From assembly GCF_022808675.1 (NCBI RefSeq), contig NZ_JAKZKV010000001.1, positions 434,001-498,000 on the forward strand: 64,000 nucleotides of DNA. The letters run 5' to 3'. This document shows, piece by piece, positions 19,787-59,282 of this stretch (position 1 is the stretch's first letter; each line of letters opens with the position of its first letter). Under the pieces are notes generated by a model, which made no database searches, had not been told where the DNA came from, and saw only the letters and a program-made list of their open reading frames with translations. Position numbers and translations under genes: made by a program. Source of the DNA: Parabacteroides sp. FAFU027 (GTDB lineage Bacteria > Bacteroidota > Bacteroidia > Bacteroidales > UBA7332).

Positions 19787-20870
19787 ATGGAAAATAAATC
19801 AACTATTTCAATAAACAACAACTATCTGATCATCATGGCCGGAGGAGTCGGCAGTCGCTTCTGGCCAATGAGTACCAGCGATTGCCCCAAGCAGTTTCTG
19901 GATGTTTTAAACATCGGGCGTACTTTATACAGCAAACCGCCGACAGGTTTGAAGGAATAGTGCCCAAAGAGAATATCATGGTGGTCACCTCTCAGAAATA
20001 CAAACTGCTGGTTCGTGAGCAACTGCCCTTTTTAACTGATAATCAAATCTTGTTGGAGCCCTGTATGAGGAATACTGCCCCATGTATAGCATACGGCGTA
20101 TGGAAAATAATCAAGCGCAATAAGCTGGCGAATATCATAGTTGCCCCGAGTGACCACCTGATCACCCGTGAAGAGGATTTTAAGAACGTTATAAACGAAG
20201 GAATCCGTTTTATCGCATCGACCGAGTCACTCTTAACACTGGGTATGAAAGCGCACAAAGCAGAAACCGGCTATGGTTATATCCAAGCTTCCCTTCAAAG
20301 CGCTATTGAAGGTTACACTCAACTCTATCCGGTGAACCGCTTTGCCGAAAAGCCAAATAAAGCTACCGCAGAGCAATATCTTTTGGATAGAGACTACTTC
20401 TGGAACTCAGGAATCTTTCTGTGGTCTGCACGCAACATCGAAAAAGCGATTCGCTCCTACCTACCAGAAGTTGCCGAAATCTTTGATAAGGGTACTAACC
20501 TTTTCGATACAGCAAGCGAGCAGGAGTTTATCAATGAAGAATTCCCCAAATGCACCAATATATCGGTCGATTATGGAATTCTGGAAAAAGCCGATAATAT
20601 TTATGTAAAAACAGCGGACTTTGGATGGTCTGACTTAGGCACCTGGGGTTCTCTTCACGAGCAATCTGATAAGATAGGTGAAGGAAATGTTGTTATGGGG
20701 AAATTCGCACATTCGAGACACAAGACTCCATCATACGCATCTTCAGCGATAAAAAAGTAGTAGTCCAGGGCCTGAACAACTACATCGTAGTAGATACCGG
20801 CGAAGCCTTACTGATTTGCAATAAAGACGAAGAACAACGCATAAAGGAATTTCAGGCAGAATTTCTTTGA
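19787..20870 (+). pseudogene. manC: Mannose-1-phosphate guanylyltransferase with two -1 frameshifts
   Basis: Three consecutive reading frames together encode one GMP-type guanylyltransferase of about 361 aa, which would make GDP-mannose from GTP and mannose-1-phosphate. The first part (19787 to about 19926) has the nucleotide-binding MAGGVGSRFWPMS and PKQFLD. A one-base loss near 19924-19929 shifts the frame. The middle part runs IQQTADRFEG through NRFAEKP and FGWSDLGTWGSLHE. A second one-base loss near 20708-20716 shifts again, and the end reads FETQDSIIRIF to a TGA at 20868. Each shift needs only one missing base, so recent inactivation or sequencing/assembly error are both possible. Confidence 0.85.
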
Positions 20871-45134: not shown

Positions 45135-45208
45135 TAGCGCGACCCAGGATTGAACTGGGGACCTCATGATTATGAATCATGCGCTCTAACCAGCTGAGCT
45201 ATCGCGCC
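45135..45208 (-). tRNA. tRNA-Met(CAT), copy 1
   Basis: A 74-nt cloverleaf reads on the minus strand: acceptor GGCGCGA paired with TCGCGCT (closing G-T pair), D-arm GCTC/GAGC, anticodon stem CATGA/TCATG with loop TTCATAA (anticodon CAT), T-arm CCCAG/CTGGG with TTCAATC, discriminator A; CCA is not encoded. The first acceptor pair is not the C-A mismatch of initiator tRNA, so this is an elongator Met tRNA or, less likely, the tRNA-Ile whose CAT is modified by TilS. Confidence 0.92.
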
Positions 45209-45247
45209 ATCAATTCTTTTACAACTGAGAAATATTTAGTGAGAATT

Positions 45248-45284
45248 AAAAAGCACTTACAAGATTGATGGTAAGTGCTTTTTT
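45248..45284 (-). terminator. Terminator after tRNA copy 2
   Basis: AAAAAGCACTTAC and GTAAGTGCTTTTT pair perfectly around a 10-nt loop, 3 bp beyond the second tRNA. The stem shares the word GCACTTA with the terminator after the first tRNA, pointing to duplication of a tRNA-terminator unit. Confidence 0.85.
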
Positions 45285-45287
45285 GAG

Positions 45288-45361
45288 TAGCGCGACCCAG
45301 GATTGAACTGGGGACCTCATGATTATGAATCATGCGCTCTAACCAGCTGAGCTATCGCGCC
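45288..45361 (-). tRNA. tRNA-Met(CAT), copy 2
   Basis: Identical over all 74 nt to the tRNA at 45135-45208 and 153 bp from it. On the minus strand this is the promoter-proximal copy: a TACCTTTG box lies 18 bp upstream. A terminator sits between the two copies, so the distal copy depends on read-through or an unseen promoter. Confidence 0.92.
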
Positions 45362-48700: not shown

Positions 48701-48768
48701 GGAAAATTCACCGTGCGGAAAGGGATTGACACAAAGGGAATAAACAGGGACCGGTATAAAAAAGAAAA

Positions 48769-48843
48769 GGTTGTCATCACGACAACCTCAACCCTTAATT
48801 AACCTTTAAATCTAATACCATGAAAAACACAGTGCAAATATAG
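48769..48843 (+). other. Hairpin plus abandoned gene start
   Basis: AGGTTGTC/GACAACCT (48769-48789, 5-nt loop) is followed by a leader and an ATG at 48820 that opens a frame of only seven codons (MKNTVQI, stop at 48841-48843). The leader-plus-MKN start resembles the beginning of an exported protein gene, but nothing follows, so this may be the remnant of a lost gene. Confidence 0.3.
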
Positions 48844-53311: not shown

Positions 53312-53373
53312 CTCCGTAGCCTGCCAATAAAATCGACAAACAAAAAAGGACGGTAGGCCGTTTGGCGACAGGC
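53312..53373. repeat. Dispersed repeat, copy 1 of 2
   Basis: CTCCGTAGCCTGC, an A-rich spacer, then GGTAGGCCGTTTGGCGACAGGC. A close copy is at 58833-58891. GCCTG and CAGGC at the two ends can pair. Confidence 0.7.
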
Positions 53374-53411
53374 CCCTACCTCGCGCAAGTATAAATAATA
53401 TGCAGTCTGTA

Positions 53412-53582
53412 CCTAGCGCAAGTCTTGAGCGCAGCGGGGACTTGTGCTGGAAACCAGAGCAGTCTGCGACTGTAATAAGAAGAAAGAACAAGTCCATTTA
53501 GAAGTCATTCAGTTTGAAAACTGAAAACATTTGGAGTCCAAGTCTCCGCTGCACTCAAGACATGAACCAGATGCCGAGTACA
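53412..53582 (+). repeat. 172-bp structured element, copy A (diverged)
   Basis: It begins CCTAGCGCAAGTCTTGAGCG and ends GATGCCGAGTACAA. It has the same parts as copies B to D, 171 bp long, with several substitutions (for example AGAAGTCA for AGATGTCA and GCACTC for GCGCTC), and is the most diverged full copy. Confidence 0.9.
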
Positions 53583-53644
53583 ACATTGTAACCTTAGAGA
53601 TAGCAGGAAATAAAACATTATCAAGTAAATAACAAACCATTATT

Positions 53645-54289
53645 ATGAAGAAAATATCAGCCGTTATCATCAGTATGATTATCTGTGGAAACCTACCAGC
53701 ACAAAAAGTTGCAAATGGAGGATATAACAGTTATGAAGAATACAAAAACAATAAGCCAACTTATGCAGATTCCTTTATCGTAAAAAAACGGACAACCGGA
53801 GACATCAAAGCATGGGGAGGTAATGACTTTAAGGTAGAGTACCTAAGCGAGAGCGTCACCAAGAAAATGATAAAAAAGGAAATTTGGGGAATTAGCAAAA
53901 ATGACACATTGTATTTGAATGCAGAACCACTATCGGGACTCTACTGGTATGCCAGAGTTGAAATTGTTGGCAAGTATTGTTTTGTACGTCCAGCATTTCC
54001 CATCAATGGAAAACTTCAGAAACAATATGGATTAAATGATCCTCAGTTCGGGTATATGTTCGGGGCTTTGGGAGGAGCACTGCAAGCTATGCAGACAGCC
54101 GTAAAAAGGATTCCTGTAATATATTGCCCTGAAACCGGAAATAAAATGTTGTTGTGCGAAACTAATCTGGCCAAACTTATGGAGAATAATACCGGGCTTT
54201 TAGCTGAATTCAATGCTGAAACCGACAAAAAAAATGAAGAGGTATTATTGAAGTATCTGAAAAAGCTCAATGATGTTGACAAAAGATAG
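53645..54289 (+). CDS. Small secreted protein, DUF6563-like
   Basis: The 214-aa protein has a signal peptide (MKKISAVIISMIICGNLPAQ). The mature region has NGGYNSYEEYKNNKPTYAD and later GLYWYARVEIVGKYCFVRPA and YCPETGNKMLLCETN, features that recall a Bacteroidota family of small exported proteins (DUF6563). The assignment is from memory of the start motif and should be treated as tentative. It lies alone between repeat copies. Confidence 0.6.
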   Translation: MKKISAVIISMIICGNLPAQKVANGGYNSYEEYKNNKPTYADSFIVKKRTTGDIKAWGGNDFKVEYLSESVTKKMIKKEIWGISKNDTLYLNAEPLSGLYWYARVEIVGKYCFVRPAFPINGKLQKQYGLNDPQFGYMFGALGGALQAMQTAVKRIPVIYCPETGNKMLLCETNLAKLMENNTGLLAEFNAETDKKNEEVLLKYLKKLNDVDKR

Positions 54290-54339
54290 CCCCGGTTGGA
54301 CAACTGGTTCTGCCTTCGCCCTCTCTAATAACAATACAT

Positions 54340-54449
54340 CACAGGATTAAAAACCCGTGTGCTACCATATCGGTCATGCCTACGGCATTGTACACAACAA
54401 AATGTCGTAGGTGTGACCGATATTGTAGCGACGAACTTTAGTCCGGAGA
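54340..54449. repeat. Compact REP-like palindrome (TATCGGTCATGCC family)
   Basis: TATCGGTCATGCCTACGGCATT (54368-54389) pairs with 54401-54422 around an 11-nt loop; the three non-Watson-Crick positions are all G-T compatible in the folded strand. Flanks GTGCTACCATA and TGTAGCGAC extend the pairing. Arms also match those of the split copy near 48920 and 49085. Confidence 0.75.
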
Positions 54450-54490
54450 TAACCAACCCCAACAATTACAAATACAAAACATTAAGCACG

Positions 54491-54931
54491 ATGGAAAGAA
54501 AAAAACAAGCCGCAATCAGCTGTTTTCAGAATGGATTTAATTGCAGCCAGGCTGTTCTAAGTACCTTTAGCGAAGAATTAGGCTTGACTACAGAAACAGC
54601 ATTAAAAATATCGACATGCTTTGGTGGTGGAATGCGAAATGGAGAAGTCTGTGGTGCTATCACTGGTGGATTGATGGTGATCGGCCTCAAATACGGTCAT
54701 TCGAAACAAGGGGATGACACAACCAAAACCAGAGCCTATCAACTAACCCGTGAATTTACACAACAATTCAAGGAAAAGCACGGCACTCTTCTATGCCGGC
54801 AATTACTGGGTTATGATCTATCCGATCCGGAACAGCTTGCAATCATCAAAGAAAAGCAACTGTTTGATACCATTTGCCCGAGAATTATTGAAGATGTAGT
54901 CGAAATGGTGGAAAAGGTTGGAAGAGAATAA
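54491..54931 (+). CDS. C_GCAxxG_C_C family protein
   Basis: The 146-aa protein has the family pattern: NCSQAVLSTFSEELGL, STCFGGGMRNGEVCGAITGG, then a later LLCRQLLGYD and DTICPRIIED. The spaced cysteines suggest redox activity or metal binding; the family has no established biochemical role. The ATG at 54491 was chosen because the open frame upstream (to 54359) runs through a palindromic repeat. Not part of an operon. Confidence 0.85.
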   Translation: MERKKQAAISCFQNGFNCSQAVLSTFSEELGLTTETALKISTCFGGGMRNGEVCGAITGGLMVIGLKYGHSKQGDDTTKTRAYQLTREFTQQFKEKHGTLLCRQLLGYDLSDPEQLAIIKEKQLFDTICPRIIEDVVEMVEKVGRE

Positions 54932-54984
54932 CGTAATAAACAACGATAAAAATGCTACTGAACATCAATATAGAGAAATCCGTA

Positions 54985-55156
54985 CCTAGCGCAAGTCTTG
55001 AGCGCAGCGGGGACTTGTGCTGGAAACCAGAGCAGTCTGAGACTGTAACAAGAAGAAAGGACAAGTCCATTTAGATGTCATTCAGTTTGAAAACTGAAAA
55101 CATTTGGAGTCCAAATCTCCGCTGCGCTCAAGACTTGAACTAGATGCCGAGTGCAA
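54985..55156 (+). repeat. 172-bp structured element, copy B
   Basis: Long arms CAAGTCTTGAGCGCAGCGGG... (54992-55017) and its near reverse complement (55112-55137) enclose 94 nt with inner hairpins: CAGTC-TGA-GACTG, TCAGTTT-GA-AAACTGA and the self-complementary GGACAAGTCC. The copy starts the first 303-bp tandem unit; copy C begins exactly 303 bp later. Confidence 0.92.
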
Positions 55157-55287
55157 GATATAGTCCTAGATAAAGTAACGATAATCTACCTGATAACAGC
55201 TATACAGAATATCAGTCAACCCAATGGTAGAGATGCGATTCATCGCGTCCCCTTTCTCGCGCAAATATAAATAATATGCACTCTGTG
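55157..55287 (+). repeat. Spacer of the 303-bp tandem unit
   Basis: This 131-bp spacer (GATATAGTCCTAGATAAAG...) is repeated almost exactly at 55460-55590. It contains GGTAGAGATGCGATTCATCG (55226 on), a copy of the GTAGAGACGC palindrome, and a partial GCGCAAATATAAATAATATG stretch also found before copy A. No gene is present. Confidence 0.85.
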
Positions 55288-55459
55288 CCTAGCGCAAGTC
55301 TTGAGCGCAGCGGGGACTTGTGCTGGAAACCAGAGCAGTCTGCGACTGTAACAAGAAGAAAGGACAAGTCCATTTAGATGTCATTCAGTTTGAAAACTGA
55401 AAACATTTGGAGTCCAAGTCTCCGCTGCGCTCAAGACTCGAACTAGATGCCGAGTGCAA
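55288..55459 (+). repeat. 172-bp structured element, copy C
   Basis: Nearly identical to copy B and to copy D; its stem-2 hairpin is CAGTC-TGC-GACTG. With the following spacer it forms the second 303-bp unit. Such high identity points to recent tandem duplication. Confidence 0.92.
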
Positions 55460-55590
55460 GATATAGTCCTAGATAAAGTAACGATAATCTACCTGATAAC
55501 AGCTATACGGAATATCAGTCAACCTAATGGTAGAGATGCGATTCATCGCGTCCCCTTTCTCGCGCAAATATAAATAATATGCACTCTGTG

Positions 55591-55762
55591 CCTAGCGCAA
55601 GTCTTGAGCGCAGCGGGGACTTGTGCTGGAAACCAGAGCAGTCTGCGACTGTGATAAGAAGAAAGGACAAGTCCATTTAGATGTCATTCAGTTTGAAAAC
55701 TGAAAACATTTGGAGTCCAAGTCTCCGCTGCGCTCAAGACTTTAACTAGATGCCGAGTGCAA
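55591..55762 (+). repeat. 172-bp structured element, copy D, upstream of the transposase
   Basis: Third tandem copy, ending 95 bp before the start of the RAYT gene. After it the sequence no longer follows the 303-bp unit, so the transposase lies directly beside the repeat. Confidence 0.92.
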
Positions 55763-55857
55763 TTTAGCAACCTAAGAGCAAACACAGTATCAGACTAAAA
55801 TAAAGGAATCACATAAATCAAAAAGCAGGTATTAAATTAGGACAATAAGCAAAGACT

Positions 55858-56409
55858 ATGAGCCGAAAATATAAGTTTCGAAACCCAGAAGCGGTTTATT
55901 TTGTAAGCTTTACAACAATAAACTGGATAGATGTCTTTACCCGAAGTGAATATAAACATATCATCGTAGATAGCCTTAATCATTGCATTGAGAAAAAAGG
56001 ATTAATCGTTTACGCATGGGTGATTATGAGCAATCATGTGCATTTGGTGATCGAAAGCAAAGGAATGGCCTTAGATGACATTCTACGCGACATGAAGAAA
56101 TTCACTGCCTCTGAGATAATAAAAGCCATCTCTAATAATCTGCAGGAAAGTAGGAAGGAGTGGATGCTTTGGATGTTTGAACGTGCGGGTAAAAAGAACC
56201 CGAACAATACAAGATACCAATTCTGGCAGCAACATAATCAACCAATAGAATTAACCAGGCACGCTTTTGGTATTGATGCAGCGATAGACTATATCCATGA
56301 GAATCCGGTGAAAGCGGGTTTTGTTGACCGGGCCGAAAATTACCCATTCAGCAGTGCGGTTGACTTTGTAGGAAGAAAAGGATTGGTGAATATCGTTCCT
56401 TGCTGGTGA
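55858..56409 (+). CDS. REP-associated tyrosine transposase (Y1_Tnp / HUH family)
   Basis: The 183-aa protein has the IS200-like fold: KYKFRNPEAVYFVSFTTINW at the N-terminus, the metal-binding HUH motif in MSNHVHLVIE (H60, H62), and the probable nucleophile Y145 in AIDYIHENPVKAGFV. These are RAYT hallmarks. RAYTs cut and rejoin single-stranded REP hairpins and are thought to spread REP sequences. The element half-copy 6 bp after the stop and the three full copies upstream are its likely substrates. All catalytic residues are present, so it could be active. Confidence 0.92.
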   Translation: MSRKYKFRNPEAVYFVSFTTINWIDVFTRSEYKHIIVDSLNHCIEKKGLIVYAWVIMSNHVHLVIESKGMALDDILRDMKKFTASEIIKAISNNLQESRKEWMLWMFERAGKKNPNNTRYQFWQQHNQPIELTRHAFGIDAAIDYIHENPVKAGFVDRAENYPFSSAVDFVGRKGLVNIVPCW

Positions 56410-56415
56410 AATAGA

Positions 56416-56490
56416 TCAGTTTGAAAACTGAAACAGTTTTGAGTCCAAGTCACCGCTGCGCTCAAGACTTGAACTAGCTACTGAGTGCAA
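56416..56490 (+). repeat. 172-bp structured element, half copy E
   Basis: It matches the second half of copies B to D, from CAGTTTGAAAACTGA to GAGTGCAA, with several substitutions. It starts 6 bp after the RAYT stop codon. Confidence 0.85.
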
Positions 56491-57327: not shown

Positions 57328-57613
57328 TACAGCCATCCCTTTATCGCGCGAGTTTGAAAGGCAACTTCTGGCGCAAGTTTAGCGATAGAAGAGTTCGAGA
57401 ATGTAAAATCTAAAATTGAACACATTGTGTCTGGATTCACAAGCGGGTAGAAGTTGTAAATAGTAATTTTGTTACCGCCTCCATTTGAATATACGTCGAT
57501 TGAGATTCGCGATATACGGAAGCGTAGGCAGGAATATTGAACTTTAAATAAATTGAAAAAGAATACAGCAAACAAGAGTTGTTTCTCTTACTAATTATTC
57601 CATTTCTAAAACC
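57328..57613. other. Intergenic region with a degenerate structured-element fragment
   Basis: GCGCGAGTTTGAAAGG and GGCGCAAGTTTAGCGATAG (57347-57391) resemble the stem-1 part of the structured elements but the rest is missing. No gene is seen. Confidence 0.5.
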
Positions 57614-59061: not shown

Positions 59062-59268
59062 GCGTGAGTTTAGCGATAGCGTCCCCGATAGAGATCGGGA
59101 CCGTGACCAAAACCAAGACAGCTTGTAGCTGTAATAAATAAAGCAGAAAGCCGACAACATAAGGTCGATTTTCTGCTTTATTGATTCAAATCCAGAATTC
59201 TCCGAATTCTAAAACAGCTACAAGCTGTTTAGGTTTCCAGCACGAGTTCGCTATCGCTAAACTCGCGC
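59062..59268. repeat. 207-bp nested inverted repeat with structured-element arms
   Basis: The outer arms GCGTGAGTTTAGCGATAGCG (59062-59081) and 59249-59268 are reverse complements with one mismatch; the inner arms ACAGCTTGTAGCTGT (59118-59132) and ACAGCTACAAGCTGT (59214-59228) match perfectly. The right arm read on the minus strand (59271 down to 59214) is a complete version of the structured-element module found in copies A to D. Confidence 0.85.
59136..59183. terminator. Central hairpin of the nested palindrome
   Basis: AATAAAGCAGAAA...GAC pairs with GTC...TTTTCTGCTTTATT around AACATAAG. It is a likely terminator for the converging xylanase and ABC-F genes. Confidence 0.7.
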
Positions 59269-59282
59269 TAAAGGAAGACAAC

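Follow-up and report, generated by a model that had tools for sequence, protein, structure and literature searches.

Judging from sequence comparison, copies of a 172-bp repeat in the genome of Parabacteroides sp. FAFU027 (G000) and the REP-associated tyrosine transposase (RAYT) gene among them probably form a REPtron of a Bacteroidota type, in which non-autonomous REPIN-like elements are paired with a cognate RAYT. The cluster lies in a 64-kb window (the whole stretch of 64,000 nucleotides that was analysed). Systems of the REPIN/RAYT kind are already known; the new observations are the hairpins with a CT foot and a wobble at the fourth pair, the fixed direction of the elements 3' of genes, and their punctuation of gene arrays.

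Layout of the cluster

The cluster contains, as the earlier note described, four full copies, A (53412-53583), B (54985-55156), C (55288-55459) and D (55591-55762), and one right-half copy, E (56416-56490), all on the + strand. B, C and D follow one another in a register of 303/303 bp, as had been noted, and their two 131-bp spacers (55157-55287 and 55460-55590, both +) differ at 2 sites. The first spacer consists of the outer arms of the neighbouring elements and ~70 nt of unique sequence. The RAYT gene (RAYT1; 55858-56409, +) stands between D and E, and E begins 7 nt past its stop codon. Genes for a DUF6563 protein (53645-54289, +) and a C_GCAxxG_C_C redox-type protein (54491-54931, +) also lie between elements and are co-oriented.

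Other repeats occur in and near the cluster. Between A and B there is a palindromic repeat (arms 54361-54389 and 54401-54429) of a separate dispersed family, which matches several places in G002, the genome of a sister species, and one in G001. Fragments of the repeat family associated with another RAYT, RAYT3, lie at 57337-57387 and 59215-59277 (left outer part and right end). Elsewhere in the window, an apparent GDP-mannose pyrophosphorylase-type gene is split in two ORFs (19787-20760), and at 45135-45361 and 48757-48830 there is a pair of equally scoring tRNA genes separated by 80 bp, together with the sRNA FopS, of a Bacteroidetes paralogous sRNA family.

Anatomy and folding of the element

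The anatomy of the element was taken from an alignment of 16-19 copies from G000 and G002 (the latter 89% complete, in 830 contigs). The 172-bp repeat is real, but conservation runs ~35-40 bp further out on each side, in outer arms that contain ...CCCTCTTTCGCGCAAGTATAA... on the left and ...GTGCAAGATATTAGACTTGGAAGAA on the right, and with these arms the unit measures about 240 bp. The arms are conserved around A (~53372-53608), and the left one is absent from B. The unit is made up of a left end (LE) and a right end (RE), each with one REP of ~34 nt, in opposite orientation. The earlier note took it to be much bigger than a classical REP, whereas the unit is a REPIN-like pair of inverted REPs with inner hairpins. 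LE-only and RE-only copies also exist, E being an example of the latter. The REP consensus is CCTAG[CG/TT]CAAGTCTGAGCGCAGCGGGGACTTG[TGC/GAC]..., and a short CAG...CTG hairpin lies on its inner side. In place of the canonical GT[AG]G foot there is CCT, and the stem starts AGCGC or AGTTC, which sets the element apart from canonical GTAG REPs. None of the Rfam families match the elements.

Folded as single-stranded DNA, copy C reaches -44.3 kcal/mol, against -23.0 +/- 3.0 kcal/mol for dinucleotide shuffles (z -7.0). The structure of local hairpins is consistent with the alignment, since 94% of its pair cells are standard, compared with 26-43% when it is slid, and there is modest covariation, with both sides changed at 3 pairs. 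A long LE-RE cruciform or duplex was rejected as the selected structure, its covariation being no greater than in shuffles.

The two ends differ in the strand on which they fold better, which is the top strand for LE (16/16 copies) and the bottom strand for RE (14/16 copies, the remaining two tying at zero). This is because the wobble at the fourth pair (G.T or T.G) becomes an A.C mismatch on the opposite strand. In copy C, the LE hairpin (55291-55324, +) has a CT foot, the stem AGCGCAAGTC/GACTTGTGCT and a G.T wobble at the fourth pair, and is stable on the top strand; the RE hairpin (55411-55444, -) has a CT foot, the stem AGTTC.../...GGACT and a T.G wobble at the fourth pair, and folds better on the bottom strand. 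The element thus resembles a REPIN in having two inverted REPs that each form a hairpin, and also in that its copies are dispersed and mostly intergenic, with 1 copy overlapping an ORF of at least 75 aa.

Two smaller features were seen in right-end REPs. A small nested palindrome (about TCCCGATAGNNATCGGGA) is inserted at one and the same place in both families (L065 5678-5746, L123 2577-2672, L126 1-192 and L063 7674-7912). There are also two deletion derivatives (L201 ~1467; L122 5000-5250), both with breakpoints just past CTAGTTCAAG in the 5' arm.

The RAYT protein

The gene between D and E was correctly taken to be an intact RAYT. The 183-aa product, RAYT1, scores 95 bits against a cut-off of 80 for NCBIfam REP_Tyr_transpos, and carries the HUH motif NHVH (H60/H62), WQ, and YIHENP with the nucleophile Y145. 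Y145 and both histidines are invariant in 14 and in 35 homologues, and the homologues are nearly all from Bacteroidota. The predicted structure (pLDDT 91) has as its nearest fold 4ER8 (E 5.6e-8, TM 0.72 on the target), an E. coli-type TnpAREP complexed with a REP hairpin. The protein therefore has the HUH motif, single catalytic tyrosine and fold of a RAYT/TnpAREP. By motif, host and flanks (NHVH, WQ and non-GTAG flanking structures) it is of the Bacteroidota subclass 2.6 type, YIHENP departing by one residue.

Besides RAYT1, the genome holds relatives at 80 and 73% identity, two at 46-48% and one that is broken. The three RAYT paralogues share 73-80% amino acid identity, with dN of 0.11-0.17 and saturated dS.

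Dispersal and linkage to RAYT genes

The genome-wide copy count places family 1, the 172-bp element, at about 17 places in G000, so it is dispersed and a simple local duplication is ruled out. This copy number is low for a REP family. G002 has about as many, with 22 matches, and the family is absent from 58 other genomes of the order. RAYT2 (C5) has an LE 8 nt upstream and an RE about 8 nt downstream, both ends being family-1. RAYT3 (C1:399 kb) has the LE-RAYT-RE layout too, with its own family 3, whose REP is CT[AG]GCGC...GTG and which is dispersed as well. Two places, G000:C7:69137-70556 and G000:C1:723933-725352, have family-3 matches with equal scores and spacing, and represent a recent duplication or an assembly duplicate.

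The earlier note had linked the element to the transposase, and here G002 is ambiguous. Despite its 22 matches, this genome (89% complete, 830 contigs) has no detectable RAYT of the RAYT1 clade; however, two of its loci resemble RAYT loss. At the counterpart of the RAYT3 locus the RAYT is absent and the shared flanks are joined via one element of the same family, and at that of RAYT2 the RAYT is absent with one flank and a hybrid-looking element left. From their sequences, both look like RAYT loss via element-element recombination.

A hairpin rule at Bacteroidota RAYT loci

The flanks of RAYT genes were compared at 75 named Bacteroidota loci with a RAYT of the RAYT1 type, from which a hairpin rule was derived. 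At 43 of the 75, the inverted flanks exceed the maximum of 150 mismatched controls. The hairpin CT[ACG][CG]CGC...GTG is found upstream on the + strand at 37 loci and on the - strand at 4, and downstream on the + strand at 3 and on the - strand at 38; in controls it appears in 2/132 far windows and in 0 shuffles. Including the CT foot and the fourth-pair wobble, the counts are 21/20 loci in the right view versus 2/1 in the wrong view. The density of REPs within 300 nt of the RAYT is 16-fold that of the remaining 3-kb flanks.

The rule for Bacteroidota RAYTs is therefore a 5'-CT, a stem NSCGC...GTG and a wobble at the fourth pair, with both hairpins pointing at the gene. It was defined and counted on one and the same 75 loci, its tests being the strand, far-window and shuffle contrasts, and roughly half to two thirds of them conform to it; some relatives have other stems. 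The main text of the published survey gives the flanking structures of Bacteroidota subclass 2.6 only as atypical and without GT[AG]G (PMC6006769). The hairpin rule is so far undescribed.

Gene position, arrays and differences between sister species

The elements sit 3' of genes in a fixed orientation. In codirectional intergenic regions, 24/25 of the genome's own copies are LE-first relative to transcription (convergent gene pairs, being uninformative for orientation, were excluded), a bias of about 1.5e-6 (two-sided, computed by hand) in which array copies are not fully independent. No own copies were found in divergent intergenic regions.

At some loci the elements punctuate arrays of genes. 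At L118 (G002:C6) they alternate with single co-oriented genes over three one-gene intervals, and the same one-gene/element alternation is seen in G000 at L063 4174-9171, where the inspected junctions all carry an element or a remnant. The genes in these arrays are typical accessory ones (DUF4304, FRG, TonB_C, Fer4, DUF6563). Over L118 3250-6918 gene and element recur four times; the orthologous place in G000 is without them and has another gene and a family-3 element. The wider region L063 2833-14878 (G000:C1:398.8-410.9 kb) holds about a dozen single genes in one orientation, and almost all of their junctions carry a REPIN or remnant; its G002 counterpart is without RAYT3 and five of the genes, and has other genes.

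Where G000 and G002 can be compared, single genes between or beside elements differ while the flanks are 81-98% identical, and homology stops at or near elements. Proximity to an element predicts the loss of homology only weakly: against a target set that is incomplete, the value is 0.41 up to 300 bp and 0.62-0.68 farther out. Neither clean empty sites nor target duplications were found among eight G000 flanks compared with G002 and seven G002 flanks compared with G000, a set with almost no orthologous pair; for most copies the two sisters do not share homologous flanks. The sole orthologous pair, L121/L201, differs in its genes and by a lost REP hairpin, and does not amount to a clean empty site. 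Homologous recombination between direct elements explains the inspected differences between the two genomes; site-specific exchange by the RAYT would map similarly.

Origin of the 303-bp tandem

The near-identity of the tandem copies had been read as a sign of recent activity. At the diagnostic sites, however, copy C has the D state at the three on the left and the B state at the two in the middle and all on the right; the two exceptional sites are single-copy changes, one in B and one in C. Because C is a D/B chimera, the B-C-D tandem is attributed to an unequal crossover in which two directly repeated elements, 303 bp apart, took part. This reading was preferred to an origin of the tandem by transposition, on which the pattern has no bearing either way, and recent activity at this locus is not supported by these sequences.

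Proposed mechanism and alternatives

It has been shown that the E. coli TnpAREP cuts at a CT beside the REP and requires irregularities in the stem (PMC8266576). In the preferred reading, the 172-bp unit is a non-autonomous REPIN-like element whose two inverted REPs, LE and RE, have an inner hairpin apiece. The RAYT next to it is a single-strand HUH/Y1 endonuclease, and its substrate is most likely each REP in folded, single-stranded form. The enzyme would tell the right strand from the wrong one by the fourth-pair wobble, which is G.T/T.G in the REP strand and an A.C mismatch in its complement. It would cut at or near the CT foot, and would have spread the LE-RE pair between genes. The 303-bp tandem is put down to unequal homologous recombination between two direct copies, and similar element-element recombination seems to be how the sister species lost RAYTs and genes.

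Other readings of the same elements were considered. LE-RAYT-RE could be an IS200-like insertion sequence, autonomous and about 715 bp long, of which the 172-bp element would be an internally deleted MITE. The close LE and RE on either side of RAYT2, the similar layout at RAYT3 and the make-up of the 172-bp unit as LE plus RE would fit this, but at RAYT1 the flanking repeats are one full element and an RE, and not an LE/RE pair. The three RAYT proteins are also 20-27% apart, and identical multicopy LE-RAYT-RE units were not found. In IS608 both ends fold on one strand, unlike here, where the inverted-repeat ends are each read on a different strand, and we regard an IS200-like origin as rather unlikely. 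Another possibility is that the elements now act at gene ends solely as RNA or termination signals, selected and copied by ordinary recombination with the RAYT as a bystander. Such a role would suit their site 3' of genes in one orientation, the higher stability of the LE hairpin on the coding strand, and the retention of elements in G002 without a detectable RAYT. It would not lead one to expect REP polarity to invert across the RAYT at dozens of loci, nor two unlinked families to follow the same rule, each with its own RAYT, and is improbable.

The arrays suggest a further alternative, that the elements are recombination sites of cassette arrays at which a gene with its 3' element is excised and inserted site-specifically by the RAYT or another recombinase, like IntI/attC. 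We consider this improbable, as also its integron-like, HUH-run form, in which 3'-tagged genes are gained and lost at REPINs through single-strand cutting by the RAYT. The one-directional gene-element-gene alternation at L118 and L063 4174-9171, the LE-first copies with none in divergent regions, the accessory nature of the genes and the single-gene differences between similar flanks, whose homology gives out at or close to elements, are all what cassettes would give. However, no cassette was observed at two places, none of the array genes of one species being found elsewhere in the other, and the integron integrase TIGR02249 stays below cut-off in G000, G001 and G002, with only partial tyrosine-recombinase matches. 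Homologous recombination between direct repeats can account for the inspected cases, the C chimera included, element distance predicts homology loss weakly, and REPs elsewhere likewise lie downstream of genes (PMC3733652). Site-specific exchange of gene cassettes at the elements is unlikely. A 556-aa open frame at G000:C1:229323-230123, with a homologue in G001, has split partial integron-integrase matches below cut-off.

Comparison with known systems

The preferred reading, a REPtron of a Bacteroidota type, has its closest parallels in the REPIN/BIME and RAYT systems of E. coli and Pseudomonas, which share the inverted REP pair, the strand-asymmetric stem, the dispersed intergenic copies clustered round an HUH/Y1 RAYT, and the fold nearest 4ER8. 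The strand asymmetry of the LE and RE stems resembles that of the E. coli REP/iREP (PMC8266576). In contrast, the foot here is CT rather than GT[AG]G, a fourth-pair wobble takes the place of the AA/GC bulge of the E. coli REP, the inner hairpins and outer arms of LE differ from those of RE, the copy number is low and the elements keep a fixed orientation 3' of genes.

Within the RAYTs, the protein is most like TnpAY1 subclass 2.6, or Bertels group 5, as its main-text description has it (Quentin et al., 2018, PMC6006769): from Bacteroidota, about 180 aa, with NH[LIV]H and WQ, without GT[AG]G, and with structured flanks that have copies elsewhere in the genome. That text calls the structures atypical and weak, whereas here they are given a consensus, a rule for the strand and an anatomy with two ends; the tyrosine motif is YIHENP here and YIH[QN]NP as published there (PMC6006769). 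In TIRtrons, too, inverted repeats bracket a RAYT-like gene; these repeats have no relation to GTAG REPs, and some form repeat families (Di Nocera et al., 2013, PMC3733652). Their motif is GGGGWSAS (PMC3733652), and they differ from the present elements, in which every inverted repeat is a REP hairpin with an inner hairpin. Integron gene cassettes (attC) likewise form arrays whose content varies, with a structured repeat downstream of single genes that share one orientation, but here there is no IntI-type integrase over cut-off and no sign yet of site-specific exchange, and the nearby enzyme is an HUH transposase.

Significance

RAYTs are widespread, yet the target of the Bacteroidota subclass has been described only as "atypical structures". 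The CT/fourth-pair wobble rule provides an explicit prediction of substrate and strand for this subclass. Should further strains show the same polarity 3' of genes and the same link to variable single-gene arrays, REPINs would give structure to arrays of accessory genes and be more than intergenic debris.
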